Source: a virus. Taken from it: 36,987 bases of DNA. The notes beneath the pieces were generated by a model, which worked only from the letters and a program-made list of their open reading frames with translations, had not been told where the DNA came from and made no database searches. The translations under genes and the position numbers were made by a program. Numbering within the stretch: position 1 is the first letter of the stretch; every line of letters begins with the position of its first letter. Of this stretch, positions 10,102-36,444 are shown piece after piece. The stretch is from positions 1 through 36,987 of IMG/VR virus record IMGVR_UViG_3300036832_000730; one strand, given 5' to 3'.

Positions 10102-10795
10102 GCAGCGCTCCGACGCGTGGTACCGGCTGCGGATGGGCATCCCGACTGCCAGCCAGTTTCACAACGTCCTCACCCCGCTGGGCGCGCCCACCAAGGGCGA
10201 CCGCCGCGCCAAGTACAAATTCCGCCTGATTGCCGAGCGGCTGCTGAAACAATCCATGGACGACCGCTTCGAGAACTACTGGACCCGGCGCGGCAAAGAG
10301 TTGGAGGACGCCGCCCGTGACGCTTTTGTGGGTCAATCTCCGGGTTGTACGGGCATCGAGACAGTCGGCTTTATCACCACCGACGACGGCAAGATCGGTG
10401 CGTCGCCTGACGGTTTCCTGCGGGATATCACCGGCCGCCGCAGCAAGGAGGGTCTGGAGATCAAATGCCCGTCGCCCTGGGTGCAGGTCGAATATCTGCT
10501 TGAAGGACTGGAGAGCAATTACAAGCCGCAGGTTCAAGGCCACATGCTGGTCGGCGGCTTCGAGACCATGCACCTGTGGTGCTGGCATCCGGCGATGCCG
10601 CCGGTCCATGTCCAGACCGAGCGCGACGACGACTACATCAAGAAACTGGCGCGCGCGCTGTTCGACTTCTGCAACGAGCTGGACGCCGAGACCGACCGGG
10701 CGCAGCGCAAAGGGCCGTACAAGCTGGCGGAACTTTTGCGGCTGTCGGCCGAAATGCACGAGGACATACCAGGGACATTTCCCTGGTTTAGCTAG
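10082..10795 (+). CDS. YqaJ-type (lambda-exonuclease-like) viral recombinase nuclease
   Basis: 237 residues. The N-terminal 'EQRSDAWYRLRMGIPTASQF' is the family's W...R...G..(T/S)AS entry motif. The active site is complete: E75 in 'RGKELED', D110 in 'GKIGASPDG', E126 and K128 in 'LEIKCPSP', and 'YKPQVQGHM' (147-155). Such enzymes resect double-stranded DNA for single-strand annealing recombination, usually with an annealase or SSB; the SSB-like gene at 7455 is the obvious partner. Codon use is strongly GC3, as in the virion genes. Confidence 0.9.
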   Translation: MKIHLCEQRSDAWYRLRMGIPTASQFHNVLTPLGAPTKGDRRAKYKFRLIAERLLKQSMDDRFENYWTRRGKELEDAARDAFVGQSPGCTGIETVGFITTDDGKIGASPDGFLRDITGRRSKEGLEIKCPSPWVQVEYLLEGLESNYKPQVQGHMLVGGFETMHLWCWHPAMPPVHVQTERDDDYIKKLARALFDFCNELDAETDRAQRKGPYKLAELLRLSAEMHEDIPGTFPWFS

Positions 10796-12130: not shown

Positions 12131-13045
12131 TTACTGCCGCTCGACCGCGCCTTCCGCGCTGCCGGCTGCGCCACCGACGGCAGTCGGCAGGGCGCGTTGC
12201 AGTGCGCCGCCACCCTTCATCGCGGCCGCCCTGCCCATTCTGTCGAGCCCTCTACCGACCGGGGAATGGTAGAACACCATCAGTTCGGGAATGCCAATCT
12301 TCCATAGCCAGTCCATCGGTACGCCCATAAAGTGCGCGAGACCCTCGACGCCGGCAAAGGCCGCGCCGCGTGCCGCTTGGCCAGCCGTGAATTGGCCGGC
12401 GCGGGTTTGTGCCAGCGCACCCAGCCCTGGACTGAGCCCGGCGGTTATCGCGCCACTCACTGCGCCAGCGCCAGGGTTTTCCGGGTCGGTGGCCGCGCCG
12501 CCGGCCGCACCCCTGGCGGGAACACTGACGGCTGCTCCGGCGCGCGATGGCGCAGCTCTCACAAAGCCCTGCCCGGCAGCGAACTTTCCAGGGAGCTGCG
12601 CCGGCCCCGCCAGGAGCTGCGCGCCGGTGCCACCAACATAGCCGGCGGTTTCTGCCCAGCTCCGTGACGGCTCGGCGGCAAACGTCTCCATGCGCTTGAC
12701 CCCCGGCACACGCTCGGCCATTGCGCCCAGGCTTTGCCGCGCCGCCGGATCAAATAGCCCGATGCCGGCATTGATGGCGCGCGGCACGCCGGTCGCTGCC
12801 CCGGCCAGGGATTTGGCGACACCGCGGCCGCCTTCGATCTCGCCTTGATTGAGCGGGTCGCGCGCGCCGACAAAGTCGTGGAGCGCTTCGATGCCGCGCG
12901 TGAGCGGCGTTTGCTCTGGTCGTGGCGCGGGCGCGGCTGGGGCAGCACCGCTCTCGATTTTTCCTGTGGGGGTTTTTGGTAGTGCGCTCTTCGGCGGGCC
13001 TTGATCGCCGTACAGCAGTTTGTCGAACTCTGGATCGCGCGGCAT
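12131..13045 (-). CDS. Ala/Gly-rich internal virion-type protein, 304 aa
   Basis: GGAG precedes ATG 13045. The charged N-terminus (MPRDPEFDKLLYGDQGPPKS) is followed by long Ala/Gly-rich amphipathic stretches ('AVSGAITAGLSPGLGALAQT', 'GGAAGSAEGA'), typical of proteins ejected with DNA that insert into the host envelope. TGATG overlap with the gene upstream. Location after two other large late proteins supports an internal-virion or ejection role; no catalytic motif was seen. Confidence 0.55.
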   Translation of the reverse strand: MPRDPEFDKLLYGDQGPPKSALPKTPTGKIESGAAPAAPAPRPEQTPLTRGIEALHDFVGARDPLNQGEIEGGRGVAKSLAGAATGVPRAINAGIGLFDPAARQSLGAMAERVPGVKRMETFAAEPSRSWAETAGYVGGTGAQLLAGPAQLPGKFAAGQGFVRAAPSRAGAAVSVPARGAAGGAATDPENPGAGAVSGAITAGLSPGLGALAQTRAGQFTAGQAARGAAFAGVEGLAHFMGVPMDWLWKIGIPELMVFYHSPVGRGLDRMGRAAAMKGGGALQRALPTAVGGAAGSAEGAVERQ

Positions 13046-15153
13046 CAGTCAACTCCGGGAATGTGCTCGGTGATGCCGATCACTGGCCCAACTCTCCGCA
13101 AAAATTCTTGCGCCTGTCGTTGCTTGTCCGGGTCCGGGCTCGACGCCAGCTCGCGGTACCTGTCTTGCAACTTGAAAATCCGATCCATGGTCAGCGGCGC
13201 TGCCTTGTCTTCGTCGCTCAAGCCCTTTCGTGCCTCTGATGGACTGCGGCTGACCGACAGGCTTTCGGGCTGTGCGTCCTCTGGCATCTGCCCGGTTTTG
13301 GTGTTCATCCTGACGATGTCGCGGAATACCCGCGTGTTCTTCGGGTCAACGCCCGGTACCAGCTCGTGGCGGTTGGTGGACTGCTCGAAGTCGTGCTGCG
13401 CTGTTCCTAAAAGCCGATATGCTGAAATGACATCCGGCATGATCGCGCCGCGCACCTGCATCGGCGAAGCGGTCGAGCCGAGATTTTGAATTTTCGCCAT
13501 CAGCGTGGTCACCCGCGGTGTGCCGGTCAGGCTGGCGACCGCCTGGACGTGCTGCTCCAGATCAAAGATGGCATCGAACGCGATCTTGAACCTGTCGTCG
13601 TTACCGAGCAGGCCGGAGGTCCACTTTTGAAAATTGTTCTGGATGACTGAGGCGCTCTCGTCAAAGACGTTGAGGTTTTTCAGCACGTTGAGCGTGGCCT
13701 GCGGGATTTGCGCGGCGCGCTCGATCACCTTTCTTTCGTTGCTGTCCTGGTTGAACCAGCGCTGCGCATTGGTGAAATTGCCCGGCTTGTAGCGCGGGTC
13801 ATAGGCTTGCGCCAACTGCACCCAGCGCTTGCCTTCTTCGGATTTCGGATCGACCTGATAAGTGGTCATTGCCTGCATGATGGCGGGCAGTTCGGGGTCG
13901 ACCTTGCCCAGCCGGGCGGATTTTTCCGCAAGCTGTTGTTGAATGCTCTTGTTCGGATCGGGATCGCGGTACTGCGCAGCCTTTCTGGCCTGCGCGTCCA
14001 GCCCGCGCGCCATCTGATCAATTCTGCCGGCATTGACCGGATCGACCTTGTCAAACCTATCGAGGCCGGCAACCCCGCGGCCCTTGAAGATTTCACGGGC
14101 AGCGTCCTGGGCTTCAGTCGGCAACTGGTTGAACACGGCCATGTCGCCGGTGAGTGCCGACCCAGACGGTGCGGCGCGTGGCGCTGCGCGATCCTCAGTC
14201 CCGCCGGTCATGCCGCCGGTGTCGTCTCCTCCGGGTCCAAAGCCGAATTGCCGGCGGATTTCGTCGCGCCCGGCGGTATCAAAGGATTTTTGTTGGGTGA
14301 CCAGACCGGACTGCGCCTTGCGCCACTCAGCATCTTCGATCTGCAGCATTTTGTAGACGCCCTTGATGCCGTGGCTCTCAAGGATCGGCAGCATTTTTTG
14401 ATGGCCGCTCTGGATCAGATAATTGCGCATCGCGCCTTCGGCCTGATCCTTATTAAGCAGGCCCGCGCCTTCCGCCTTGGCGATGGTGTTGGCCCCGCGC
14501 AAGAACTCGCCGTGGATTTGGATGGCTTGTTCCTGCTGTGCGAGCCACTCGGCGCGTTGGATTTGCAGCCCGCGTAAATTGGCAATGCTGAAATTCTGAG
14601 AAAAGCGGCCCTGCGAAAAAGCGTCGGCGACGGCCGCCAGCGGGTTCATCAGAAAATTGGCGCGGCCATAAGCGTCGGCCACGGGTTCGGAGCCGAACGT
14701 CGCCATCCGCGAATTGGCGTCGCGCATGACCGGATAGCTTTCTTGCGCGGACGGCATGTCGGGGCCGGGCGGAATACCTGGATAGTTCTGCGCCGCTTTG
14801 ATCGAGAAGTCGTCGTCGCCCAATTGGGTCGGGTCGCGGTTGGGCGATGGCGGTCGATAGATCGACGGCGGGTTGAGATTGTAGTCGGCCGATGCCTTGG
14901 CGTCCTTGGTAGCCTCGTCGCCCGGCATCGGGGTTTGCGGTATCTGCGGCTGCAGCGCGGCGACCTGCGCCGGATTGGTTTGACCCAGACGCGGAAAGGC
15001 CACACCAGGACCCTGCTGTGGCGGTACCGGCTGCGGTGGTGCAGCGCGCGCCCGCGCCGCCTGCTCCTCGGCGGTCGGCTGGGTTGGATCAAGCGAGCGC
15101 TGCGACGGCCGTTCCGGCGTCAGCGGTAGGTCGTTGGTCTCGGTGAGGCTCAT
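13045..15153 (-). CDS. Large internal virion-type protein, 702 aa
   Basis: 702 residues, start MSLTETNDLPLTPERPSQRS, ATGA overlap with the gene upstream. Residues 1-140 are Pro/Gln-rich and probably disordered. The middle ('FSIANLRGLQIQRAEWLAQQ', 'EQAIQIHGEFLRGANTIAKA') and C-terminal third ('NVFDESASVIQNNFQKWTSG', 'AFDAIFDLEQHVQAVASLTG') are helical and charged. Length and position fit an ejected core protein of a short-tailed phage. No lysozyme or protease motif was found. Confidence 0.55.
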   Translation of the reverse strand: MSLTETNDLPLTPERPSQRSLDPTQPTAEEQAARARAAPPQPVPPQQGPGVAFPRLGQTNPAQVAALQPQIPQTPMPGDEATKDAKASADYNLNPPSIYRPPSPNRDPTQLGDDDFSIKAAQNYPGIPPGPDMPSAQESYPVMRDANSRMATFGSEPVADAYGRANFLMNPLAAVADAFSQGRFSQNFSIANLRGLQIQRAEWLAQQEQAIQIHGEFLRGANTIAKAEGAGLLNKDQAEGAMRNYLIQSGHQKMLPILESHGIKGVYKMLQIEDAEWRKAQSGLVTQQKSFDTAGRDEIRRQFGFGPGGDDTGGMTGGTEDRAAPRAAPSGSALTGDMAVFNQLPTEAQDAAREIFKGRGVAGLDRFDKVDPVNAGRIDQMARGLDAQARKAAQYRDPDPNKSIQQQLAEKSARLGKVDPELPAIMQAMTTYQVDPKSEEGKRWVQLAQAYDPRYKPGNFTNAQRWFNQDSNERKVIERAAQIPQATLNVLKNLNVFDESASVIQNNFQKWTSGLLGNDDRFKIAFDAIFDLEQHVQAVASLTGTPRVTTLMAKIQNLGSTASPMQVRGAIMPDVISAYRLLGTAQHDFEQSTNRHELVPGVDPKNTRVFRDIVRMNTKTGQMPEDAQPESLSVSRSPSEARKGLSDEDKAAPLTMDRIFKLQDRYRELASSPDPDKQRQAQEFLRRVGPVIGITEHIPGVD

Positions 15154-17498
15154 CGCGGAAACCGCTCATTGACTTGTTGAGCTGGTGTCGGTGGCACCGG
15201 CCCAGGACCAAACCGCGCTCGCCAATTCGGTCCGTAATAGTTCGTCATTTCCTGTTCCCATAACCCGGCTTCGTTTAATTCTCCGGGAACGGGGGTGGTG
15301 TTCATATCGCGGAGCACCTCCGGTCGGAGATTTCTCGGATCACGGCCCAGAAGCTGCCGAGCGAATGGGTCGTTGGGGTTGAATTGAGGCATCGGCCGGC
15401 CCTGGACCGGCCCCTGGAACTCTGTTTCATTCCTGCGGTCCTCAATCCGCGTCGATGGTTTATCTTTGATCTTGTTCATTTCAGCGCGCATGGCATCAAG
15501 TTTGTCCGACAGCTCGGTGTCGCTGGAAAACACACCGGGTTGTTTGTTGGTAAATTGTTGAGGTGCGCCGATCCGACTACCGGACGGCAATGGCGGCAAG
15601 CCCTGCCGCGCCCGGATGGCGTTGAGCATGTCGGTTCCAGGTGCAGTCCTGGCCGGTACCGTACCTCCCGGCTGTCGTGTGGCAGCGCCGGCTTGGCCAG
15701 GAGCTGGTGCAGGAGCCGGAGCGGTGGGAGCTGCGCTACTGGAGCCCGGCGGATAGCCTTGTTCGGTGTTGAAGCGCTCCTGATTGACGGGAGTGTCGAA
15801 CAGTTTGTTCTGCTTCCGCCAGTTTTCGTAGGCGGCACGCCACTGTGTTCGCTCTTGGACGGTTTGCGGGGCGGCTCGGGCCGTGCCAGAGGGCGCGGCG
15901 GGGGTGGCCTGCACTCCGGGCTGTGCTTGCGGAGCCGCGGGTCGCCCGGTGCCGGGCACAAGTCCGCCCGCCCCGCCGGCTGCTGCCGCCGTCAGCGGGT
16001 CCATGGGTTGACGTGAGCCGAGATCGCCTCTGGCGAGCTGAGTTGAGCCAAAAGTGCCCGGAACGGAGACGGGAGGCTGAAAAGTTTGGTCTGGGGCGAT
16101 CCGTTGCCTCTCAATGTCACCCCTGCCGGGCAGACGCTGCAGATTTTCGGTCGCAATAGGCGTTGGCGGGGGCGGTGGAGCCCCTTTTCCGATCATATTT
16201 TGCTCGTTTGGGGTGCCTAATTGGCCGGTGAGCGCGCGCATAGCCTCGCTGAAAGCCCCGGAGTAATCGCCGCGCATGAGCCGGCCGATGGCGCTGTCCG
16301 GGTCGGCCTTCCAGCCTCCGGTCGGTGTATTTCCAGGGCCGGTACTCGATTGTGGCGAAACTGGGGCAGGTCCAGCCGCCGTTCCTTCCGGCGGTAGCGC
16401 TCGGGTAACACCCTCTGGCGACGTGGTCAGGACATCGCCGGCCTGACCTGTCGGGCGCAGCCCGGCTTCCGGGGTAGGGCCGCCCATACGTCCTGGGATC
16501 GGGTACTCGGGACGGGGTTCTGCGGCCGGCTCCGGTAGAGCTGGGACTGAAGCGGGGCCGGCGGACGGATAAACTTGGCCCGTGCCCAAGGGGTCCATGT
16601 AGCTGATCGCCGTATTCGCCGCCGTTGGTGGTGTTCGAGCCGTCGAAGCCTGCGAAGCCGTGGCCGGGTCCATGTACGCCTGGGCGGTCTGCAGCGTGCT
16701 CGGCGGGATTGGCTCTCCGGCTGGATTGATGGTGGATGTGGTTATCGGCGTATGAGGTGTCGTCGCAGCTTCGACTGTGCCGGTCGGCAGTCCAGGCTGT
16801 GGCACAGCGGTCTTTGGCTGCTCAGGAGTATCCGGCTCGGTCGCCTTCTCGGGCGTCGGATCGGCTGGTGTGATCTTGCCGTCGCCGCCGGTCCCCGCAG
16901 CCGGCTGCTGAGGTTCTGGCTGCGGAGCCGGGGCCGGGGCAGCGACGGGTGCTGTTGCCGCTGCCGCAGACGGCGAATAGGCCGGTAGTGGGTGCGTCGG
17001 TGAGCCCTGGTAGCCGGGCTCGATGGTGTAGGTGTTACCGAAAGGATCACGACCACCCGCGCCAGCCGGTCCGCCGGCCATCGGCCAGCCGGCACTGGCC
17101 GGTGCACCTGATTGCGCCGCGACATTACCCAGGCTGCTGCCGCGCGGCGACTGCGATCCGAACAGCGTCGTGATGATGCTCGACAGGTTCGAGCCCCAGT
17201 TGCCGCCCTGCGGACCGGACTGCGTCCCGGTCGGCGACGATGGCGGGGTGACGGTCGAGGCATAGAGCCCCTGGGTCTGTGCCTGGGTCACCGGGTCGTT
17301 CGGACCGCCGATCACGGACGCCGGCGAGCCGCCGCCCGACATGGCGTTGTCGACAAATTGCGACGGAGCACCGCCCGGCGACATCGCATTGCCGGAAAAA
17401 TCAGTACCGGCGGTTTGGGCCATAGGCTGTGACGTGCCTAGGGCCGAGCCGCTACCGCCGCCGCCGCCACCACCACCGCCACCCATGCCGCCAGCCAT
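15150..17498 (-). CDS. Low-complexity Pro/Gly/Thr-rich virion protein, 782 aa
   Basis: GGAGG precedes ATG 17498. The start is MAGGMGG followed by a run of glycines. Most of the chain is Pro/Gly/Thr/Ala-rich without clear domains, with internal similarity ('AQAYMDPATASQ' and 'AISYMDPLGTGQ'). The last 120 residues are more ordered ('FSSDTELSDKLDAMRAEMNK', 'ELNEAGLWEQEMTNYYGPNW'). It resembles the next two genes in opening with MAG(G/S) and may be an ejection protein or extended tail component. Length of the repeat-rich part may vary between isolates. Confidence 0.5.
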   Translation of the reverse strand: MAGGMGGGGGGGGGGSGSALGTSQPMAQTAGTDFSGNAMSPGGAPSQFVDNAMSGGGSPASVIGGPNDPVTQAQTQGLYASTVTPPSSPTGTQSGPQGGNWGSNLSSIITTLFGSQSPRGSSLGNVAAQSGAPASAGWPMAGGPAGAGGRDPFGNTYTIEPGYQGSPTHPLPAYSPSAAAATAPVAAPAPAPQPEPQQPAAGTGGDGKITPADPTPEKATEPDTPEQPKTAVPQPGLPTGTVEAATTPHTPITTSTINPAGEPIPPSTLQTAQAYMDPATASQASTARTPPTAANTAISYMDPLGTGQVYPSAGPASVPALPEPAAEPRPEYPIPGRMGGPTPEAGLRPTGQAGDVLTTSPEGVTRALPPEGTAAGPAPVSPQSSTGPGNTPTGGWKADPDSAIGRLMRGDYSGAFSEAMRALTGQLGTPNEQNMIGKGAPPPPPTPIATENLQRLPGRGDIERQRIAPDQTFQPPVSVPGTFGSTQLARGDLGSRQPMDPLTAAAAGGAGGLVPGTGRPAAPQAQPGVQATPAAPSGTARAAPQTVQERTQWRAAYENWRKQNKLFDTPVNQERFNTEQGYPPGSSSAAPTAPAPAPAPGQAGAATRQPGGTVPARTAPGTDMLNAIRARQGLPPLPSGSRIGAPQQFTNKQPGVFSSDTELSDKLDAMRAEMNKIKDKPSTRIEDRRNETEFQGPVQGRPMPQFNPNDPFARQLLGRDPRNLRPEVLRDMNTTPVPGELNEAGLWEQEMTNYYGPNWRARFGPGPVPPTPAQQVNERFPR

Positions 17499-17995
17499 CA
17501 GATGCCTCCAATGAGCCCGCCGATGCCGCTGGCGACCTGCCCCTTGGCTTGCTGCGCGCCGACGGCGGCCTGCGTGGTCTCACTCAGGTCCTGGAATTGC
17601 CCCTCGCCGATCGCGCCCTGAAATTCCTGCGGAATGCCGCCGGTCAGGCTGGGCCGTTGACCGATGTCCATCAGAAAGGCAGTCGGTCCAGAGGCGGGGG
17701 TGGCCGGGGTGCCGGGCGTGCCGGGACTGCCGAAAATGCCGGCCGTGCCGGGGGTGGCCGGGGTGCCAGCGGTAGCCGGGGTGCCGGGGGTGACCGGCGT
17801 AGTGCCACTGCCGGGGACGCCGGCAACAGCCCCGTGCGTCCGCCCGGCCGGAGTGGCTCCGGTGCCGCCGAGACCGAGCTGGTTGTAGCGGTTGGTCATG
17901 TCGCCGATCGACATCTGGGTGCCGAACATGGCGTTCTGGGTGTCGGAGCCCTGGATTTGTCCCGGCTGTCCGCCGCCGCCAATGCCGCCTGCCAT
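17498..17995 (-). CDS. Collagen-like (Gly-Thr-Pro) virion protein with Gly-zipper end, 165 aa
   Basis: Starts MAGGIGGGGQPGQIQGSDTQ. Residues about 60-105 are a run of G-T-P/A-T-P units ('TPGTPATAGTPATPGTAG', 'SPGTPGTPATPAS'), visible in the DNA as repeated gccggggtgcc blocks. The order is not a strict Gly-X-Y, so a true triple helix is uncertain. The end 'GQVASGIGGLIGGI' is a Gly-zipper. ATG/TAG junctions are tight with both neighbours. It may be a fibrous or membrane-inserting virion part. Confidence 0.55.
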   Translation of the reverse strand: MAGGIGGGGQPGQIQGSDTQNAMFGTQMSIGDMTNRYNQLGLGGTGATPAGRTHGAVAGVPGSGTTPVTPGTPATAGTPATPGTAGIFGSPGTPGTPATPASGPTAFLMDIGQRPSLTGGIPQEFQGAIGEGQFQDLSETTQAAVGAQQAKGQVASGIGGLIGGI

Positions 17996-18414
17996 CAGAT
18001 ACCTGCCAATCTGGTGATGCCACCGAGCGCGCTGCCGATGCCGCCGAGCGTCGAACCGAGCGCGCCCTTCTGGGCGTTGGCGAATTGCTGCGAGGCCGAC
18101 TTCATGGCGTCGTCAATCCGCATGGTCTGCAGCACGTCGCCGGCCAACGCGCCGACATTGGCTTGTGTCCCCATGGTTGACGAGCCGGTGCCGGAGGAGA
18201 ACGCTTGTTTGTTGGCGGCGACATTCTCGCCGCCGGTAAAGCCGGTCCAGGCCGCTTCTTGCGGCGACACACTGCCCTCTGCCGGCAGACCAAACAAAGC
18301 GCCGACACTGGAGCCCGAGCCGCCAAAACCAAGCGGGGTTGGAGGATTACCGCTGCTGAAGTTTTGGCTCGGCGTGAATGGTGTGCCACCGCCTGTTGTG
18401 CTGCTACCGGCCAT
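17995..18414 (-). CDS. Small virion protein with Gly-zipper C-terminus, 139 aa
   Basis: Begins MAGSSTTGGGTPFTPSQNFS; polar and Gly/Ser-rich for 70 residues, then a helical part ('GALAGDVLQTMRIDDAMKSA') and a glycine-zipper end ('GSTLGGIGSALGGITRLAGI'). The end resembles that of the collagen-like neighbour, suggesting both can pack in a membrane or helical bundle. It overlaps the GNAT-like gene by 11 nt. Confidence 0.5.
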   Translation of the reverse strand: MAGSSTTGGGTPFTPSQNFSSGNPPTPLGFGGSGSSVGALFGLPAEGSVSPQEAAWTGFTGGENVAANKQAFSSGTGSSTMGTQANVGALAGDVLQTMRIDDAMKSASQQFANAQKGALGSTLGGIGSALGGITRLAGI

Positions 18415-18838
18415 AGTCGAGCCTCAAGGTAAAGCGCGGGCTGACCTCAGTTGCGCCGATGCGCTTGCAGAACACGGTCAGGTCGCTGTCGGTTTCCGAC
18501 GAGCAGCGCCATGCCACACAGCGCCGCGACTTCGCCCATTCAACCGACGAGCGCATCAGCTTCAAGGCTTCCCAGCCACGGCCGTCATCGGCGACGATGA
18601 AGACAATGCTGGCCTCGAATTCATAGGGTATCCACGGCAGCGTAGTCAGCATGGAAATGCAAAAGGCGTTGTCGGTGCGCTGCGGCAAGTACAGCAGCGG
18701 GTTCTTCATCACGATGTTGCGAAACCACAGCTCGGTCGAGAGCGCGTCGTATTTGTGAGAATATTTTTTGCGACACAAATAGAACAGCCAGGGAATGTCG
18801 GCCTCGGTCATGACCCGAAGCGGATTTTCGTTTACCAA
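18404..18838 (-). CDS. GNAT-like acetyltransferase-fold protein, 144 aa
   Basis: The usual first strand and helix of a GNAT fold are seen in 'LRVMTEADIPWLFYLCRKKY'. To keep that strand the start should be TTG 18838, which overlaps the upstream stop; ATG 18811 would cut it. The centre 'EFEASIVFIVADDGRGWEAL' and the end 'TVFCKRIGATEVSPRFTLRL' match later strands, but the acetyl-CoA loop (Q/R-x-x-G-x-G/A) is not clear, with only 'DDGRGWEA' in its place. Such proteins recur in tail regions of phages; substrate unknown, activity doubtful. Confidence 0.5.
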   Translation of the reverse strand: MVNENPLRVMTEADIPWLFYLCRKKYSHKYDALSTELWFRNIVMKNPLLYLPQRTDNAFCISMLTTLPWIPYEFEASIVFIVADDGRGWEALKLMRSSVEWAKSRRCVAWRCSSETDSDLTVFCKRIGATEVSPRFTLRLDYGR

Positions 18839-19569
18839 AACGGGAAGTTCACCGGCGCTCGGCTCGTCCACCACCACGGGTTCGACACCACTTCCATTCC
18901 CGGCGGCGTTCCCGCGGTTAAAGGCTGTAGCGTCGGCAGCGGTAAGATCGCGTTGTTCGCTGCGAAGTGTTGCTGGTGGTTGACGAAGGTCCACCATGAT
19001 GTGTTCTCCGGGCTGCCCCCGCTACCTTCTAGCAAAATCTGCGCTTGGGGAATACCGAAGGTCCCGCCCTGGATGGCATTGGCCTGGGTGTAGGGCGGAA
19101 ACGTTATGGTCAGGGCGACGGCGGACAATGTCGTTGCCGCCGTAGTGACGTAAACGCCGTCACCTCCTGGAGTGCCGCTCGCCTGACTGGCGATATTGAC
19201 GCCAGCGGGAACACCGGCACCTGCAACACTCGCGCCAACTTTGATGGTGCCGGTCACCGCCGCCATTGTCAGGTTGGTTGTTCCAGTCGAAGTCCCCGTG
19301 CCGTGAGCGACGTTGGGCGGGATGACTGTCGTGGTGTAGCCATCGGCGTAGTTGGACGGCAGGTCATTATTGAAATCGTTGTGCGATTGCTGATGCCGCA
19401 AATTCCAGGGATTGGCGGGAGTGGTGGTGTCGGCGGCGGGATCGAGCAAATAAGGTAAAACGGAAAAACTCGACAGGTTATTCATCACCGCAAAATAATT
19501 GCGGGTCTGCATCATGTGCTCAAAGGCGTAGATCGGATCATCGGGATTGAGCAGAACCGCGAGCGGCAT
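18832..19569 (-). CDS. Virion protein with an inserted beta-module, 245 aa
   Basis: MPLAVLLNPDDPIYAFEHMM, 'FSVLPYLLDPAADTT', 'NPWNLRHQQSHNDFN' and the end 'WWWTSRAPVNFPFW' form a framework I recall from proteins near the tails of phages of Hyphomicrobiales. Between residues about 91 and 155 sits a Thr/Gly/Val-rich block ('TGTTNLTMAAVTGTIKVGAS', 'VPAGVNIASQASGTPGGDGV', 'YVTTAATTLS'). This repeats the form of a beta-module common in phage fibre and adhesin proteins, so the gene looks like a framework with an inserted domain. A role in surface binding is inferred. Confidence 0.6.
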   Translation of the reverse strand: MPLAVLLNPDDPIYAFEHMMQTRNYFAVMNNLSSFSVLPYLLDPAADTTTPANPWNLRHQQSHNDFNNDLPSNYADGYTTTVIPPNVAHGTGTSTGTTNLTMAAVTGTIKVGASVAGAGVPAGVNIASQASGTPGGDGVYVTTAATTLSAVALTITFPPYTQANAIQGGTFGIPQAQILLEGSGGSPENTSWWTFVNHQQHFAANNAILPLPTLQPLTAGTPPGMEVVSNPWWWTSRAPVNFPFW

Positions 19570-19858: not shown

Positions 19859-20173
19859 TTAGCGTTTGTATCGGCGTACCTCCTTGGAAATCAGTGTGCT
19901 GGCTTCCTGCGCTGGCGCGCGGGTATCGGACGTGCCGAGCGGATCAAACCCTCTTGGACTGACGCGATCCATGCCGAAGTCGGAGGCGTTGCCGCCCCGC
20001 AATGCGCCCTTTGGGCCTACTCTCGGCTCGGTCGAGAGACGCAAAGGACCGGCGAGTGGTCGATCTGATCTCAGCTTCCCGTCCGAGGTCTGGAAACACC
20101 CGACTGGAGAGGTTCGGGGCGTCCCGTCCGAGGTTTGTTGTCTCGGCCATGGTGCTTGGCTTTCTTTGGTCAT
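19859..20173 (-). CDS. Hypothetical basic protein, 104 aa
   Basis: ATG 20173 overlaps the nuclease stop (ATGA). Its own stop lies inside the leader of the next gene. Composition is Ser/Arg/Pro-rich with little secondary structure ('TSDGTPRTSPVGCFQTSDGK', 'STLISKEVRRYKR'). Two 'QTSDG(T/K)' units are seen at about residues 14 and 28. Junction evidence is good; domain evidence is absent. Confidence 0.45.
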   Translation of the reverse strand: MTKESQAPWPRQQTSDGTPRTSPVGCFQTSDGKLRSDRPLAGPLRLSTEPRVGPKGALRGGNASDFGMDRVSPRGFDPLGTSDTRAPAQEASTLISKEVRRYKR

Positions 20174-20631
20174 AGGGTCATGTCCAATTGACGTACGGTC
20201 TCTGGCGGCCTGCTCTCGGTCACCTTCCGATGTCCGATACCAGCATCGTCCAACGCCGCGACGACATCGCCGATATTGCGAGCGACATAAACTTTGATGT
20301 CGAGCGCCTGCAACTGAGCAAACATCGTGCGTTGCGCGGAGGAGACGGCGTTGACGCCGACTTTCAGTTCGATGCCGATGACTTTGAGACGTTTCTCGAA
20401 ATGCTCTTCGTTGGTAGCGAACACCAAAATATCCGGCATGCCCTTTTTCATGCCGCTGGCTTTGAGCCGGCCGGCTGTTGCCGGTGTCAATCGCCCCCAG
20501 CCGGCCGGGAACGTGGTGAACATCGCTGGAGGTAGTAGTATCCAGTCGAGCAGCTCAGCCACGGACACATGCAACTCAGTCTCCCGCGGATTGTGCGGCA
20601 GATTGAATGGTCTGGCTTTGCGTTTTTTCAC
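20170..20631 (-). CDS. VRR-NUC domain nuclease, 153 aa
   Basis: GTG 20631 overlaps the upstream stop (GTGA). The N-terminal helix 'ETELHVSVAELLDWILLPPA' is followed by 'GMKKGMPDILVF', 'VIGIELKVGVNAVSSAQRTM' and 'ALDIKVYVARNIGDVVAALD'. These give the PD-(D/E)xK core as used in VRR-NUC enzymes: D in GMPD, E and K in ELK, Q in SSAQ. Viral members act as structure-specific or resolvase-like nucleases. It is in the middle of the late operon, so a role in clearing branched DNA before packaging is plausible. Confidence 0.8.
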   Translation of the reverse strand: MKKRKARPFNLPHNPRETELHVSVAELLDWILLPPAMFTTFPAGWGRLTPATAGRLKASGMKKGMPDILVFATNEEHFEKRLKVIGIELKVGVNAVSSAQRTMFAQLQALDIKVYVARNIGDVVAALDDAGIGHRKVTESRPPETVRQLDMTL

Positions 20632-20735
20632 CGCCGCTTCCGTCGAACCGGCCCGGTGCGACCACCGGATCGTGGTGAGCGGGTCTTGGGTTTCACCGGG
20701 CCACGACGGCCCGGTGCTTTGTCTTTGCGAGCCAT
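20628..20735 (-). CDS. Arg/Lys-rich mini-protein (cassette member 6), 35 aa
   Basis: MARKDKAPGRRGPVKPKTRS then 'PRSGGRTGPVRRKRR': 10 Arg and 5 Lys in 35 residues, Pro/Gly-rich. ATG 20735 has GTGAGG upstream. The same frame stays open to TTG 20867, so this may be the C-terminus of a longer protein (20628-20867) with a hydrophobic middle 'RPLAFVATAVIVKALAADGV'. Protamine-like composition suggests nucleic-acid binding. GTGA overlap with the nuclease gene. Confidence 0.5.
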   Translation of the reverse strand: MARKDKAPGRRGPVKPKTRSPRSGGRTGPVRRKRR

Positions 20736-20742
20736 CACAGCC

Positions 20743-20886
20743 TCACATGCGTCCACGCCGTCCGCGGCCAGTGCCTTGACGATGACCGCGGTGGCGACGA
20801 ATGCGAGTGGACGGCCGATGCAGCCGGCCCGCTTTGCCGGCTGGATCGACGCGACTGCGTGGCCCAAGGTTGACGCCTCGTGCCAT
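20743..20886 (-). CDS. Arg-rich mini-protein (cassette member 5) or shadow of a longer frame, 47 aa
   Basis: An excellent AGGAGG five nt before ATG 20886, which overlaps the stop of member 4 (TGATG). The frame gives MARGVNLGPRSRVDPAGKAG then an Arg/His/Gly-rich end with 14 Arg in 47. The third-codon GC is lower than in the alternative frame (TTG 20867, which runs through to 20628). That alternative reads 'AVASIQPAKRAGCIGRPLAF' and is more protein-like. A +1 slip near 20865 would join this start to that frame. Which is real is open. Confidence 0.35.
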   Translation of the reverse strand: MARGVNLGPRSRVDPAGKAGRLHRPSTRIRRHRGHRQGTGRGRRGRM

Positions 20887-21044
20887 CAGAACCTCCTAAG
20901 CGGGCGCATTCGCGGACTGAACCGACGAGTGACGCCACGTTTGAGCGAAGAATTAGGGCGCGGCTGAACGTTCGGGGTGCGATAGTTCAGGAAACGTTTG
21001 TTCTTGAGCTGTCGACCCAGCATCTTGGAAACGTCAGCGGCCAT
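20886..21044 (-). CDS. Basic mini-protein (cassette member 4), 52 aa
   Basis: ATG 21044 lies inside the end of member 3. MAADVSKMLGRQLKNKRFLN then 'YRTPNVQPRPNSSLKRGVTR' and 'RFSPRMRPLRRF': 11 Arg and 4 Lys in 52. The first 15 residues could be a helix; the rest is Pro/Arg-rich and extended. Of the cassette this one looks most like a folded or semi-folded protein. AAGG at the end of member 3 can serve as its ribosome-binding site. Confidence 0.5.
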   Translation of the reverse strand: MAADVSKMLGRQLKNKRFLNYRTPNVQPRPNSSLKRGVTRRFSPRMRPLRRF

Positions 21045-21114
21045 GCCTCCTCGCCTTGCGGGCTCTGACACGACGGGCGCGGCGGGTTTGTTTGAGACGC
21101 TTACCACGCGCCAT
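21034..21114 (-). CDS. Arg-rich mini-protein (cassette member 3), 26 aa
   Basis: GGGAGG five nt before ATG 21114, which overlaps the stop of member 2 (TGATG). MARGKRLKQTRRARRVRARK then 'ARRHGR': 11 Arg and 3 Lys in 26 residues, no acidic residue. The composition is that of protamines or of viral DNA-condensing peptides. It overlaps member 4 by 11 nt. Confidence 0.5.
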   Translation of the reverse strand: MARGKRLKQTRRARRVRARKARRHGR

Positions 21115-21158
21115 CAATACCTCCCGCCTCGACGAGATTTACGCCCTCTGTGTGCCAT
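21114..21158 (-). CDS. Arg-rich micro-peptide (cassette member 2), 14 aa
   Basis: Frame MAHRGRKSRRGGRY, starting 6 nt after the stop of member 1 and ending in a TGATG junction with member 3. 5 Arg and 1 Lys in 14. No separate ribosome-binding site, so it would depend on re-initiation. The stop-start spacing is what supports it. Confidence 0.35.
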   Translation of the reverse strand: MAHRGRKSRRGGRY

Positions 21159-21164
21159 TGGGGC

Positions 21165-21233
21165 TTACCGGCGGCCCTTGCGGCCACGGCGACGACCACG
21201 GCGTTCACGAACTGCGGTTTCAAGGTTACCCAT
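21165..21233 (-). CDS. Arg-rich mini-protein (cassette member 1), 22 aa
   Basis: AGAGGAGAAGAGCAG leads to ATG 21233. MGNLETAVRERRGRR followed by 'RGRKGRR': 9 Arg and 1 Lys in 22. Arg codons are mostly CGT/CGC, the ones usually linked with high expression. It lies 31 nt after the stop of the 541-aa tail gene and opens the cassette. Confidence 0.5.
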   Translation of the reverse strand: MGNLETAVRERRGRRRGRKGRR

Positions 21234-21264
21234 CTGCTCTTCTCCTCTTTCGAGTGTGTGCGGG

Positions 21265-22890
21265 TTAAGCACCGAACAACGTTCGGTCTTCCGATCCTAC
21301 ATGCAAACGCTCAATAGTGAAATCCGGGGAATAGCTGTGCAGGTCGATGCCGCCGGCGATGCCCATGCCGGAAACCTGCTGCGGCTCAAAAGCGGAGGTT
21401 TGTCCTGCACTTAGCTCAAAACCGATGTCTTGGGTGCCGCCCGGAACCCCGCCAAAGAGCGTACTGAGCGTGCCGACAATTGACACGCCGCCACCGAAAT
21501 TGTCGGCAAATTCGAGAAACAGTCGCTTCCAGTTTTTGATCGTCAGTTGTTTCTGGCTTGCGCCGCGCAAGAATTTGGTCTGCAGCCGCTTGATCAAAGC
21601 GGGATCGGGTTGAGCAAACAACTGATACAGGCTGGTGCCGTCGGTGCCGTAGGGCGTGATGATGCTGTCCTGCTCATAAGCGCCAATATTTGTGAGACCG
21701 AGATTTTGCGAAGCCACCGACCAGAACGGTTGCTGGCCGGGGTGATACATCAACAACAAGCTGCGCGTCACACCCAATGGATCAGTAAATCGGCCGTTGC
21801 AGAGCAGGACCTTGAAGCCGAACATCGTCGCCGGACACATAGTCGGCAAAAACAGCGAGGTGTCGAGCGTGTTGAGAATGTTAGTGACGCGATTGCCGAT
21901 CTCGCCGGCCTCGCCACCGCGACACTCGAAGATGCCTGCACCGTTGAAGGTCTGAAAGTAGCGGCCGAGGCGGCCGACCGGGCGCGGGAAGCGCTGACCG
22001 ACTTGCGGGTCGATATTTTCGTAGTTGAAGTTAGTGGAGAACGGATTTTGCGGGGTGCCCTGGCCGGAAAGCTGCACGTTGGCGATCAGGTCGATCGAGC
22101 TGTCGCCGAAGCAGTACAAATAACCGGCCGAGGCCGCCAAATCGTTGAAGCTGTAAGTCAGCTTGTTGCCGAAATAGCCGAACGAGCCGCCGCCATCGGT
22201 GGTGGAAAAATCTGCGCCATTTGAGGGAGCAGAGAAAGCGATCACGTCCTTGCCGGCGACCCATAATCGGCTCTGATAAACCTCCATGCAGTAGATGCCC
22301 GGCAACCCGACCGGCATGGTGTAGCTGACGGGTGGCGATGGTGTTTCCAGTGCTTCGGTCAGCCAGTCCGGTGCGGGATCGCCCGGACTGGAGAGGGTAG
22401 TGCCGTCCCAGGCGTACAATCCGAGGGGGCTGCCAAACAAGACGCCACCTTGCTGCCCGGCAGTGTTACCGAAGAATTGAGGCCGCCACACCACTGCGCT
22501 GGCCCAAAGCTGTGGATGGATGGGGGTCCAAATGGGGGTGAGCCCTGGACCGACCGAGGTGATATCGCCGGTGTCGAGGTCGACTTGGTCGATGGTGCCG
22601 TCGGAGAGGAACATCCAGCCGAGGCGACCGGGAGGTGGGACATTGAACTCTCCTGTCTCGTTGCCGATGAAACCAAAAAACATGCGAAGAATTTTGCGGC
22701 CTCCAACTGCAGTGTAGATCGCCGGCCCATGGCCCCAACAGGAGCGCAAATTGCCAGGGCCAATCGCGAACAGATTTTCATTCCACCATTCTTCCTGATC
22801 GTCGATCGAGCCGCGGAGGCCCTGCTGATTGAGCCCCTTCCATTGATCGAGTGTGAATAGCTCGAACGGGTTGGCGCTCTGGATTGGCAT
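21265..22890 (-). CDS. Beta-propeller-like tail tube/nozzle or DNA-stabilisation protein, 541 aa
   Basis: 541 residues (MPIQSANPFELFTLDQWKGL). Repeated strand blocks of about 50-60 residues contain 'GRLGWMFLSDGTIDQVDLDT', 'GIYCMEVYQSRLWVAGKDVI', 'GYLYCFGDSSIDLIAN' and 'GRYFQTFNGAGIFECRGG', a beta-propeller-like order found in tail tubular B / gp10-type proteins that close the portal channel of short-tailed phages. It follows the adaptor gene by 4 nt. The assignment to tail is inference from order and pattern; no receptor domain was recognised. Confidence 0.6.
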   Translation of the reverse strand: MPIQSANPFELFTLDQWKGLNQQGLRGSIDDQEEWWNENLFAIGPGNLRSCWGHGPAIYTAVGGRKILRMFFGFIGNETGEFNVPPPGRLGWMFLSDGTIDQVDLDTGDITSVGPGLTPIWTPIHPQLWASAVVWRPQFFGNTAGQQGGVLFGSPLGLYAWDGTTLSSPGDPAPDWLTEALETPSPPVSYTMPVGLPGIYCMEVYQSRLWVAGKDVIAFSAPSNGADFSTTDGGGSFGYFGNKLTYSFNDLAASAGYLYCFGDSSIDLIANVQLSGQGTPQNPFSTNFNYENIDPQVGQRFPRPVGRLGRYFQTFNGAGIFECRGGEAGEIGNRVTNILNTLDTSLFLPTMCPATMFGFKVLLCNGRFTDPLGVTRSLLLMYHPGQQPFWSVASQNLGLTNIGAYEQDSIITPYGTDGTSLYQLFAQPDPALIKRLQTKFLRGASQKQLTIKNWKRLFLEFADNFGGGVSIVGTLSTLFGGVPGGTQDIGFELSAGQTSAFEPQQVSGMGIAGGIDLHSYSPDFTIERLHVGSEDRTLFGA

Positions 22891-22894
22891 CGGC

Positions 22895-23629
22895 TTACGC
22901 GCTGCGCATCGCCGCGCCGTAGGCGGTTTGGATCATCTGCGGACAAACCACCGAAGCAGCGAACGGCATTTCGGCGTTGAACACCTGCGCCAGCGCCGAG
23001 GCGTCCTGGCTGCGCTGCTGCTGCATTAGCGCAAGCACTCCCGCCCAGTAACTCACCGCATCACTCCACGGGTAAGGGATGGGATCGGGGTCGTTGTCGG
23101 TGAGCAGTGGCGACGGAACGCACGACAGGTCCAGCTCCATCGGCATGGCCTGGGTGGGGATCGGCGCGAGATACAGCGACCCCAGCGCGCCCTCGCCAAA
23201 TTGCGAGTACCAGCCCGGCTCGGACAGCACGCCGAGAAATGTCCGGCCGTAAATTCTGAACCGCGCCTGAAAATCAGTCCAGACGATGCGCCGCCACATC
23301 GGCTTCCACGCGCCGCCGACAATGATCCACTGGCCGTTGTCCTGCTGCTGCCATTTGCCGCCAATGGCGACCGACAGCGAGCGGCAGGAGAGAATGGACT
23401 GCACGCCGAGCATGGTTTGCTGCACCAGCGCGTTCCAGGAGGCGAACGGATAAATTTCCTGATTAGGAATTGTCTGAATGCCTGGAGGGACTACTCTCAG
23501 ACACCCGCTTGCGGCGGCTATTCTTCGTCGACTGCGATTGATGTAGGTGTGTAGCGTCATCTCCGGGAAAAACTGTCCCTGTGCGTCGTTCAGCAAGTTC
23601 CTCGTGTCCGAGACGTACTGAGCCAACAT
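22895..23629 (-). CDS. Head-tail adaptor / tail tubular A-like protein, 244 aa
   Basis: Begins MLAQYVSDTRNLLNDAQGQF then 'FPEMTLHTYINRSRRRIAAA', the N-terminal helical pair ('L..YV.DTR.LL.D......F....L..YIN..R..IA') of portal-adaptor proteins. The rest has 'WRRIVWTDFQARFRIYGRTF' and 'YPWSDAVSYWAGVLALMQQQ'. These proteins attach under the portal ring. Its first 167 nt overlap the end of the IPT-protein frame on the same strand, an unusual arrangement. Confidence 0.7.
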   Translation of the reverse strand: MLAQYVSDTRNLLNDAQGQFFPEMTLHTYINRSRRRIAAASGCLRVVPPGIQTIPNQEIYPFASWNALVQQTMLGVQSILSCRSLSVAIGGKWQQQDNGQWIIVGGAWKPMWRRIVWTDFQARFRIYGRTFLGVLSEPGWYSQFGEGALGSLYLAPIPTQAMPMELDLSCVPSPLLTDNDPDPIPYPWSDAVSYWAGVLALMQQQRSQDASALAQVFNAEMPFAASVVCPQMIQTAYGAAMRSA

Positions 23630-24656: not shown

Positions 24657-25694
24657 TCATGGCGGTGGCGCAGGTCCGAAGGTTGCGCCGCCGGTGATGC
24701 CTTGCATAAGCAGCCCGCTTGAGGGCTTGCTGCAGACCAGATTGAGCGCGGTGAGCGACAGGCCGACGGACGCGATCTGGCCTTGCGGGATGGTCGAGTA
24801 CCAGCCGGTCCAGGCGAAATTCGCATCCTCGTGGATGACAAGAGTAATATATTTACTGTTGAAACCGATCGCGGTTCCCTTTGGACAGTTAAGGTCAAAG
24901 AAGATGGGAGTATCGCCGAGCAATAGTCCTCGGAACCCACTGTTGACCGGGTCGTCCTTACCCCAACGAGACGCTGGGTCATTGTTGTAGCGCTCGACCG
25001 ACATGAAGTCGGTCATGAGCGTTGTCCAGTCCTCGATCGCCATGACCACGAAATCGAGCGCCTCGCCACCGGAATGTTTGGCGGCATTGAGCAGGAACGG
25101 GATCATGGCGGCGCGGGTCAGGGCTGCACCGGCGGCCGGAACTTTCAGGCCGGCCCAGGTCGGATATGTGGCGCGCGACAGGCCGCCATAGACATCGACC
25201 GTGGTGCCGTCGTCATAGGCGTCGAGCAGACCGAACATCTGCAGCGCGACGTTGCCGGCGTTCGAGCCGAAGAGTGCGAGCGCCAGCGAGTGCAGTGCCG
25301 AGTTTTTCAGATCGTTCAACTTCAACATCAGCCTGCTGGCGACCGCAATCGCGTCCTGGGTCACGAGCTGCTCGAGACCAAGCGACGAGACCGGGGTTGC
25401 CAGAGCACAGAGATTGAACTCGGCGTTCACTGTTGCCGCCACGTCGGTCGGCAAATTGAACTGGCCAGCCGGTCCGATCCACGACGATGTGACATACTGG
25501 CCAGTCTGCACAGGCTGCGTGTACGGAGACACGCCGCCCGATGCGCGGATGGCATTTCTCAGGAGTAACGCGAGCAGAGGATTCTGCCGATAAATTAAGA
25601 TGACCACCATCTGCGCGAAGACGCGGCGAACGGTTGCTTCCAGCTCCAGCCCTATCGGACCTGAGGGAATTAAGCCCGAACCCAAGATCGGCAT
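24657..25694 (-). CDS. Major capsid protein (probable), 345 aa
   Basis: AGAGG before ATG 25694. 345 residues (MPILGSGLIPSGPIGLELEA) with an N-terminal helix, strands 'YVTSSWIGPAGQFNLPTDVA', a helix 'TQDAIAVASRLMLKLNDLKN', a domain with 'FVVMAIEDWTTLMTDFMSVE' and 'NSKYITLVIHEDANFAWTGW'. Length, position behind the scaffold gene, and the mixture of a long helix with beta sheets fit an HK97-fold coat protein. No direct signature motif exists for this family, so the call depends on gene order. Confidence 0.75.
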   Translation of the reverse strand: MPILGSGLIPSGPIGLELEATVRRVFAQMVVILIYRQNPLLALLLRNAIRASGGVSPYTQPVQTGQYVTSSWIGPAGQFNLPTDVAATVNAEFNLCALATPVSSLGLEQLVTQDAIAVASRLMLKLNDLKNSALHSLALALFGSNAGNVALQMFGLLDAYDDGTTVDVYGGLSRATYPTWAGLKVPAAGAALTRAAMIPFLLNAAKHSGGEALDFVVMAIEDWTTLMTDFMSVERYNNDPASRWGKDDPVNSGFRGLLLGDTPIFFDLNCPKGTAIGFNSKYITLVIHEDANFAWTGWYSTIPQGQIASVGLSLTALNLVCSKPSSGLLMQGITGGATFGPAPPP

Positions 25695-27269: not shown

Positions 27270-28988
27270 TCACTGCCGCTTTCGTCCACCTGATGACTTC
27301 TTGCCACCGGACGGGAAGCCGAGGACGCCCTTGATCAGCTCCTCCTTCTTCTCCTCCTGGGCGGTTTCGGCGGCCTTCTTCTGCCGCTGGCGCAAGCGCG
27401 ACAACAACAGTTCGGCTCCCGGCGGATGCAGCATGTGGATCAGGTCTTCGGCGTCGACCGCACCGGCGCGGGCCAGCGCAATGGCGACCTGCCGATTGTC
27501 CTCGGCGAAGGCGGGCGAGGCGGAATGGCTGTCGACCTGTATCTGAAAGCCGTCCGGCATGGCGGCGAGACGGAATTCGATTTTGTTGTCTCCGGTGATG
27601 TAAACGTGCGGGTCCATGGCCTGCATGATGCGGAAGGCGAGATAGCCGCTTTCGTTTAATTGCCGTTCGATGCGCGCGGCTTGGTCGATCAGACGCGGCG
27701 TGGATGTGCGGACCAGGGTTTGGGCGTGGACCCCTGCCCGCACCCCTGGTTCACCCTGGCCCGACATCACCGGGCTGAAGCCCGATGCCTCGTCGAACAG
27801 TTGGAAGAGGAACTGAAGCTCTTCCAGATAGTTGGCCGGCGGCGGGTCAACCAGCTTCTGAGCCTTGGCGTTCGGGTTCGGATCATTGATAAAACCGCCT
27901 TCGGAAATGATCTTGAAATACTGCTCTTCGGTGATTGAGGTAAAGCCGGAGAACACTTGTGGAGCTGCAACATTGCGGTCCCACATGACTTTGAGATCGC
28001 GCAGCCTTTTGTTCAAAATGTCCTGCAGCATCTGCACGTCGGCGAGCAGCGAGCGGCCCCAGAAATAGCCGGGTGTGGCTTGGGCTTGGATTTTGACGAA
28101 TGCGCTGCGGCCGGGAATTTTCGATAAGTTTCGCCGGGTCTTGTCGCCCTCGATGATGATCGGCTCGTGGCCATAGATCATTTGAATGACGGAGTAGTCG
28201 CCGTCACGGTCGCGATCCTTGATCCAGAGTTCGACGTGCTTGACGGTCGGGGCAAGTTTGCGATTGGGCCGCCAGGGCGTCGGGATGGGAAAGACGTTGA
28301 CAATGCCCGCCGCTTCGGCGCGGGGCGCAGACCCCGGATAATCACCCAGCGGGTTGAGGCCCCCCACCACCATCTGATGAAAATACGTGGGGCGTTCACT
28401 GTCCTGTTCGCCCGGCCGGGTCTCGCCGACCTTCTCCAGAATGGCCTCACGACGCGGATGGCTAGCCAGAACCTGACGCAGTCGCGAAACCGTTGGATAG
28501 CTGACATGGCAAAAGGCTTCTTGCTCGTCGAGGTTGATCGTGGTTTCCGACAGCACACCAAAATTTTGTGGATGCACTTGACCGAGCTGAAATCCGCCCT
28601 CCTCGGTTGGAATGTGCTTGAGCAGCGTGCAGCCATTGATCAGCGACCACACCACGCCCTCGGCGAAAGTGATGTCGCTGTCGGTGTTGCGATAGTCGGC
28701 GGTCAGCTTGTCGGACACGAGCTGAGCGCGCTCGACCACGCTGTCGCTCTCGGCGTCGTCGTAGATCATGGCAAAGCGAACGTCGGTCGGCTGCATCAGA
28801 AAGCCGGCCAACTTGTCGATGAATGGCTTACACTTGTTGTAGATGGAGGCGCGGCTGTCGTAGGTGCCGGTGTAGTAGTATTGCGCGGCGCGGGCATAGA
28901 TCATGCCGCGCTCTTCGCTTGAGGCCATGCACTCGTCAGCGAGTTCTTTGAGCCACAGTTCGAGGTCTTTGTCGGGGATGCGGAGCAT
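27270..28988 (-). CDS. Portal protein (head-tail connector), 572 aa
   Basis: ATG 28988 with AAGGA upstream (GTG 28991 also possible). The chain holds the helical entry 'DLELWLKELADECMASSEER', 'RASIYNKCKPFIDKLAGFLM' and 'RFAMIYDD', a middle 'FPIPTPWRPNRKL' with strands around 'HVELWIKDRDRDGDYSVIQM', and 'GYFWGRSLLADVQMLQDILN', which resembles the portal stem-helix approach. The C-terminal 'RLIDQAARIERQLNESGY' and a Lys/Glu-rich tail follow. The dodecameric portal is the DNA channel and terminase dock. Place next to the terminase supports the call. Confidence 0.8.
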   Translation of the reverse strand: MLRIPDKDLELWLKELADECMASSEERGMIYARAAQYYYTGTYDSRASIYNKCKPFIDKLAGFLMQPTDVRFAMIYDDAESDSVVERAQLVSDKLTADYRNTDSDITFAEGVVWSLINGCTLLKHIPTEEGGFQLGQVHPQNFGVLSETTINLDEQEAFCHVSYPTVSRLRQVLASHPRREAILEKVGETRPGEQDSERPTYFHQMVVGGLNPLGDYPGSAPRAEAAGIVNVFPIPTPWRPNRKLAPTVKHVELWIKDRDRDGDYSVIQMIYGHEPIIIEGDKTRRNLSKIPGRSAFVKIQAQATPGYFWGRSLLADVQMLQDILNKRLRDLKVMWDRNVAAPQVFSGFTSITEEQYFKIISEGGFINDPNPNAKAQKLVDPPPANYLEELQFLFQLFDEASGFSPVMSGQGEPGVRAGVHAQTLVRTSTPRLIDQAARIERQLNESGYLAFRIMQAMDPHVYITGDNKIEFRLAAMPDGFQIQVDSHSASPAFAEDNRQVAIALARAGAVDAEDLIHMLHPPGAELLLSRLRQRQKKAAETAQEEKKEELIKGVLGFPSGGKKSSGGRKRQ

Positions 28989-29199
28989 CACGCCAATCCT
29001 TATCCAGAGCGCGCCATTCGATCTCGCGGTGGATGGCGTTCAGTTGGTTGACGACATCCTCGCTCTTGTACTTGAGCCTGTCCACCCAGTGCCATAGCGT
29101 GGCCTCATACTGGACCAGCTCCTCCACGGTCATCTTGGTGATCCGCTCTTGCAGTTTTGACAGCCTTGGTTTGCCGTTGTGCTGCAGAATGATTGGCAT
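28936..29199 (-). CDS. Small helical late protein, 87 aa
   Basis: MPIILQHNGKPRLSKLQERI, 'KMTVEELVQYEATLWHWVDR', 'LKYKSEDVVNQLNAIHREIE' and a Pro/Arg-rich end that overlaps the portal start by 53 nt. The core is a helical hairpin rich in Leu/Glu/Lys. No ribosome-binding site was clear. Function unknown; position suggests a packaging accessory. Confidence 0.5.
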   Translation of the reverse strand: MPIILQHNGKPRLSKLQERITKMTVEELVQYEATLWHWVDRLKYKSEDVVNQLNAIHREIEWRALDKDWRDAPHPRQRPRTVAQRTR

Positions 29200-29814: not shown

Positions 29815-29903
29815 CAGATGTAACCTGCGTAGTGAGCGATCACGAGAAACCAAGCCGCCATCACCGTCCACCTCAACCAGCGCGGCGGCGGCGGAATGTA
29901 CAT
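29814..29903 (-). CDS. Single-span membrane peptide, 29 aa
   Basis: AAGGAGAG six nt before ATG 29903; ATG overlaps the terminase stop (TGATG) and the end overlaps the next start in the same way. MYIPPPPRWLRWTVMAAWFL then 'VIAHYAGYI': Pro/Arg front and one span. Exact junctions on both sides make it likely to be translated. Confidence 0.55.
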   Translation of the reverse strand: MYIPPPPRWLRWTVMAAWFLVIAHYAGYI

Positions 29904-35513: not shown

Positions 35514-35519
35514 GGATGC

Positions 35520-36221: not shown

Positions 36222-36291
36222 AGGTTGTGTCTCCACACAATACGCTCTCAAGAGCGGGGCGGGATGCCCGCATTGCGGCCGGTTTTGTTGC

Positions 36292-36444
36292 TTATCGTTT
36301 TTCGCAGACGTATGCGCCATTGTCGTCGAAATGGCAGCATAGACCGGAAGGCCAACAAACAACGGTGTGATCAGGAAGTTGCGCTCGAACCGTAACGGCA
36401 GATGCAAGTAATGCAGTTGCCGCGATCAACAGAATTTTTATCAT
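36292..36444 (-). CDS. Exported four-cysteine mini-protein, 50 aa
   Basis: MIKILLIAATALLASAVTVR then 'AQLPDHTVVCWPSGLCCHFD' and 'DNGAYVCEKR'. A clear signal sequence with cleavage after VRA, and a 29-residue mature part with four Cys (C-x5-CC-x9-C spacing by eye), likely two disulfides. ATGA overlap with the membrane peptide upstream. Similar in kind to the exported protein at 8137-8469. An export function together with the AAA+/VWA genes is intriguing but not proven. Confidence 0.6.
   Translation of the reverse strand: MIKILLIAATALLASAVTVRAQLPDHTVVCWPSGLCCHFDDNGAYVCEKR

Follow-up and report, generated by a model that had tools for sequence, protein, structure and literature searches.

The window analysed here is a virus record of 36,987 bases, the minus strand of which carries a podovirus-like late operon. 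On this strand lie the genes for the large terminase (29903-31744; phrog_2, PF17289), the likely portal protein (27270-28991), the major capsid protein (24657-25694; phrog_9953, net charge -5), which is 78-95% identical among relatives, and a tail adaptor at the tubeA position (22895-23629; PF24175 SU10_adaptor, E 9.8e-8). They are followed by the gene of a 541-aa tail protein (21265-22890), directly upstream of the cassette described below and assigned to the nozzle/tubeB position by synteny only. This protein is homologous to the 662-aa tail protein of MW202753 and has no detected similarity to p52 of Mx8 or to the 529-aa protein of BUCT555; its AlphaFold model (mean pLDDT 48.7) is too poor for naming a fold. 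On the 3' side of the nuclease gene that follows the cassette, the operon continues with small conserved genes, a GNAT-like gene (18404-18997, minus strand; phrog_1249) and genes for long Gly/Pro/Ala-rich proteins. These low-complexity proteins (165, 782 and 702 aa; 13045-17995) are found where ejection proteins would be expected and are without a PHROG match. No promoter-like site was found between the capsid gene and the nuclease gene. The capsid and tail proteins of the window are 23-36% identical to those of two phages assembled from Manatee Spring samples, and the capsid protein also has a weak match to Myxococcus phage Mx8; a search for a host with tail and capsid queries against 84,980 prokaryote genomes found no close relative. 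Elsewhere in the window (within 34308-36407) an AAA_5 (MoxR/CobS-like) ATPase gene adjoins a gene that looks CobT/VWA-like by eye and has a weak match to one unnamed PHROG, nothing more.

Between the tail gene and the nuclease gene, at 20628-21233 on the minus strand, there are six tiny ORFs rich in Arg and Lys, whose lengths and Arg+Lys counts agree in every case with those given by the first-pass annotation. ORF1 (21165-21233; 22 aa, Arg+Lys 10/22, net charge +8) consists of a short leader and poly-Arg and typifies what we call family A, and ORF2 (21114-21158; 14 aa, 6/14, net +6) is a second member of this family that is present in only some relatives. ORF3 (21034-21114; 26 aa, 14/26) belongs to family B, with the motif RLKQTRRARRxRARK, and ORF4 (20886-21044; 52 aa, 15/52) to family C. 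In ORF5 (20743-20886; 47 aa, 15/47), of family D, the motif MARGVxLGPRSRVDPAGK is joined to an Arg-rich arm, while ORF6 (20628-20735; 35 aa, 15/35), of family E, carries PGRxGPV followed by SPRxGGRTGPVRxxRR. Each of ORF3 to ORF6 has a net charge of +14. The central MPWSDGAWPSDW-type segment that most relatives have is missing from ORF6 of the window, and likewise from that of contig L001. The tight joining of the ORFs that had been described is also borne out, with TGATG at the ORF2/ORF3 and ORF4/ORF5 junctions, an 11-nt overlap between ORF3 and ORF4, and gaps of 6-7 nt between ORF1 and ORF2 and between ORF5 and ORF6; as reported for most of them, SD-like motifs precede five of the six, ORF2 being the exception without a clear SD.

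The ORF6 stop is overlapped by the GTG start of the next gene (20170-20631, minus strand), which encodes a VRR-NUC nuclease of the Holliday-junction-resolvase type; the assignment made at first pass holds, with a PF08774 score of 24.7 bits against a cutoff of 23.8. Stand-alone VRR-NUC proteins are known to cleave four-way junctions (PMC4103454). The gene after the cassette encodes a nuclease of the Holliday-junction-resolvase type in all 68 contigs that could be compared, the kinds being VRR-NUC in 35, a MOC1/RuvC-like enzyme (phrog_1770 and PDB MOC1 matches) in 23 and an Hjc/PDDEXK-like enzyme (phrog_244) in 10; this slot lies at 20170-20631 in the window, at 10284-10823 in L022 and at 10174-10584 in L132. 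As the enzyme has been swapped while its place is conserved, and the peptides keep the same place, the arrangement suggests that this block serves late DNA processing.

A search with the tail protein retrieved 46 viral contigs with proteins 62-89% identical to it, and profile searches located family D at 59 loci and family E at 57, all adjoining the same tail gene. The comparative set comprises 77 distinct contigs including the window, all with the neighbouring tail gene, and presence by HMM was counted in the 68 that have at least 1.5 kb downstream. Family D was found in 67 of these, E in 65, C in 63, B in 59 and F in 17, figures that may be biased upward, because the families were initially picked out by their motifs or, in the case of A, by Arg content. 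In almost all contigs the genes follow the tail gene immediately and in a fixed order, A(A)-B/F-C-D-(G)-E: one or two copies of family A, poly-Arg with or without a short leader, are followed by B, F or both, and family G stands between D and E in some contigs. The row holds four to seven separate Arg-rich mini-genes. Family E has a 20-aa short form in some contigs. An Arg-rich family H with the motif RRNLRK, missing from the window, follows the nuclease gene in 38/68. The genes are closely packed throughout the group: one-base overlaps number 130, and most starts are preceded by an SD motif. The proposal of the first-pass annotation depended on frames and starts being conserved in related phages, and the same families in the same order were found in dozens of relatives. 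Two contigs have HNH-type insertions in or beside the cassette (HNH-endonuclease-like; in L149 at 10183-10746 and in L111 between families C and D), and the core families are kept in both.

The cassette is missing from the more distant phages that were compared. A very common freshwater-type group (L170-L249, relatives of MW202753; at least 598 stretches by capsid protein) is a distant relative of the present one; its sampled loci have no cassette, and the profiles of the cassette families gave no match in 80 loci of this group. In Stenotrophomonas phage BUCT555, a gene pair of similar size (244 and 529 aa) has a GNAT gene immediately after it and no cassette. Judged by the sequences compared, the cassette is lineage-specific, confined to a group of uncultured and probably short-tailed phages.

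We evaluated the coding status of the cassette by calculating uncorrected pN/pS from independent nearest-neighbour pairs for each annotated frame. In their own frames, the families gave values of 0.25 (A), 0.16 (B, 21 independent pairs), 0.20 (C), 0.22 (D) and 0.25 (E), whereas the two other forward frames gave 1.3-2.6 with the same pairs. One antisense frame also had a low pN/pS, 0.32-0.43, always weaker than the sense frame, which we regard as an artefact that arises where third codon positions coincide. Among 15 tail-based pairs, pS was 0.49-0.55 for B to E and 0.50 for the tail gene, and pN/pS was 0.22-0.33 and 0.28, respectively. Since the pS of B to E equals that of the tail gene, it is the peptides that are conserved and not the RNA, and there is no extra constraint at the nucleotide level; selection on the peptides is about as strong as that on a normal structural gene. 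An RNA element at the cassette was also considered and rejected, as Rfam has no match in 20000-23000 and the synonymous rate is not lowered. When the window and the three long relatives closest to it were aligned without selection by motif, the result was the same for ORF1 to ORF5 (pN/pS 0.12, 0.07, 0.06, 0.19 and 0.14, in this order); ORF6 had a weak value of 0.51, due in part to length change and uncertain alignment. The fifth ORF had been called ambiguous because of better codon use in another frame, but its 47-aa frame has a pN/pS of 0.14 against 5.4 and 3.3 in the other forward frames, which removes the doubt. The 79-aa ORF of the alternative frame (20867-20628) was rejected: its pN/pS over ORF5 is 5.4, and its phase is open in only 37 of 63 D genes.

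Short ORFs in a GC-rich genome that have no database homologues might not be genes at all, but chance Arg codons in GC-rich sequence or a spacer for translation coupling. A strict scan for chains of ORFs (ATG or GTG start, SD, R+K at least 0.27, gap at most 15 nt) found a chain of four in the cassette and of one in the rest of the window; the maximum was two both in 60 dinucleotide shuffles and in 80 loci of the freshwater group (0.75 Mb). The chance or spacer explanation is contradicted by these controls, by the own-frame pN/pS of 0.16-0.25, by the switching of the selected frame at gene boundaries and by the use of all six Arg codons in the cassette, and we regard it as extremely improbable. 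Arg codon use is no more biased in the cassette than in other late genes, so that unusually high expression is unsupported. Altogether, the comparison of synonymous with non-synonymous change among relatives that had been proposed finds separate purifying selection on each family in its own frame: each of the six ORFs is a protein-coding gene in its own right, and what selection maintains is the peptide.

The encoded peptides are dominated by arginine. In the 71 sets that reach E, a few of which are short of members that escaped automatic gene calling, there are 4610 Arg and 712 Lys residues (R:K 6.5:1), the R+K fraction is 0.27-0.43 and the median net charge is +68 per set. The set of the window has a net charge of +70, as against a near-neutral or acidic character of its capsid, portal, tail and putative ejection proteins. 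The peptides of families A, B, F and H consist of little more than an arginine arm, while in C, D and E a short conserved motif is joined to an arginine-rich arm. The composition of the peptides had been likened to that of protamines, and across the group they are indeed small, strongly cationic and Arg-dominated. However, uncharged motifs are among the best-conserved positions: LGPRSRVDP in family D, PRxGxRxGP in family E. In 58 distinct complete sets, the total charge tracks gene number (rho 0.79), and no compensation of bulk charge was found, sets with gene H being no lower in charge; nothing thus indicates that selection holds the bulk charge at a set value. The kept uncharged motifs and the unfixed total charge argue against a purely bulk-charge protamine. 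An AlphaFold model of family D, built on a shallow alignment of 18 sequences, is almost all coil at low confidence (mean pLDDT 58.7).

Database searches returned no relatives of these peptides. Consensus-like D and E sequences had no match by tblastn in 50,697 phage records even at E 10, with low-complexity filtering on; the scanned peptides matched no Pfam or PHROG family; and against PDB sequences the D profile had no match and the E profile only chance-level ones. No similarity of the cassette peptides to any known DNA-condensing protein was detected. With its peptides the cassette defines several protein families that none of the searched libraries contains.

Small basic proteins that act on viral DNA are known singly from other viruses. 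Protein J of phiX174 (Microviridae) is a tiny basic phage protein with a basic arm and a capsid-docking end; unlike the cassette, it is the product of a single gene in a virus with an ssDNA genome, and the D and E profiles find no such PDB chain. Baculovirus P6.9 and other viral protamine-like proteins are small, Arg-dominated and DNA-condensing as well, but each is a single gene in eukaryotic dsDNA viruses. The gp7.3 and gp6.7 proteins of T7 resemble the cassette peptides in being small internal proteins of a podovirus; they are encoded by single genes at another operon position and are longer (gp6.7 has 88 residues), and T7, unlike the present group, is not known to have an Arg-rich multi-gene cassette. 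The neutralisation of DNA in tailed phages is usually credited to salts and polyamines. The adenovirus core contains the Arg-rich proteins VII, V and X/mu (PMC7998265). Like the cassette peptides, X/mu is a small (19-aa mature) Arg-rich late protein, which binds and helps to condense the viral dsDNA (PMC7998265); it differs in being cut from a precursor by a protease and in belonging to an animal virus, whereas the cassette peptides each have their own gene and start.

We propose, with a probability of about 0.5, that the cassette encodes late nucleic-acid-binding mini-proteins that hold or neutralise phage DNA in the head or the tail channel. The peptides would be made late by coupled translation and would bind phage nucleic acid, and the motif in C, D and E may be a docking site on another virion protein, such as the capsid or a tail component. 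The neighbouring resolvase would debranch replicating DNA ahead of packaging, and the peptides would then neutralise the DNA and keep it in place, either during its entry into the head or tail channel or once it is there. In this they would work as adenovirus mu, phiX174 J and other small core proteins of viruses do, with the task divided over several co-expressed mini-proteins.

The nearest rival, to which we give distinctly lower odds, is a role in the tail channel like that of gp7.3: a few copies of each peptide would bind the end of the DNA, help the nozzle and adaptor to assemble and then be ejected, as gp7.3 and gp6.7 of T7 are, with DNA binding only local. The cassette does lie directly 3' of the adaptor and nozzle-position genes, and the conserved uncharged motifs of D and E would suit docking. 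In T7, the N-terminus of gp7.3 is mostly positive and sits at the DNA end, and the protein is linked to the adaptor and nozzle, scaffolds nozzle assembly and is ejected (PMC11784390). The likeness, however, is one of position and charge, gp7.3 is a single gene, and such a role leaves four to eight separate Arg-rich families, pure poly-Arg included, unexplained. Somewhat less likely still are peptides that bind ribosomes or phage or host RNA and act in late antitermination, RNA protection or translation control. Arg-rich disordered peptides bind RNA as readily as DNA, and families B, F and H are similar in composition to arginine-rich RNA-binding motifs, but in the contigs examined the site is inside a structural operon, between tail and resolvase genes, and the locus has neither a nearby Rfam element nor the lowered synonymous rate expected from a local RNA target. 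An Arg-rich antiterminator of the lambda N type would be expected to have a boxB/nut-like target hairpin close to the promoters on which it acts; the Rfam scan, which covered 20000-23000, gave no hit there. Members of A, F, G and H come and go among the contigs, and these late genes lie upstream of likely ejection-protein genes; both would fit peptides that leave the virion with the DNA and protect it against nucleases or restriction in the host, or else disturb host functions as the DNA enters. We consider this improbable, given the near-universal presence of C, D and E in the group and the absence of similarity to any PHROG family.

If the mini-proteins do hold or neutralise DNA, they would probably accompany it once packaged; their presence in the virion and their condensing of DNA are inferences. 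A stronger form of the proposal, which we put forward tentatively and consider rather doubtful as it stands, is that the genome is packaged as a nucleoprotein, in which five to eight separate, co-translated Arg-rich mini-proteins, some with capsid-docking motifs, would condense dsDNA packed into the head by the motor. As arithmetic and not as evidence, an assumed 415 sets (about one per capsid subunit at T=7) at +70 each would offset roughly one in three phosphates in a genome of 43 kb. If true, packaging of this kind would amount to a protamine-like system, of which no example has been described among tailed phages.

A search of mostly open-access journal papers found no precedent for phage protamines, Arg-rich virion peptides or such a cassette in tailed phages. 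Single proteins of this type being known in other viruses, a cassette of Arg-rich core-type proteins in a tailed phage appears to be new. Tailed phages have been described as having no typical basic arm and as packing their DNA by molecular motors (PMC7096446), and a conserved set of Arg-rich mini-genes selected at the peptide level makes this picture of the tailed dsDNA phages directly testable. Because genes so small are easily missed by gene callers, similar cassettes may have been overlooked elsewhere.
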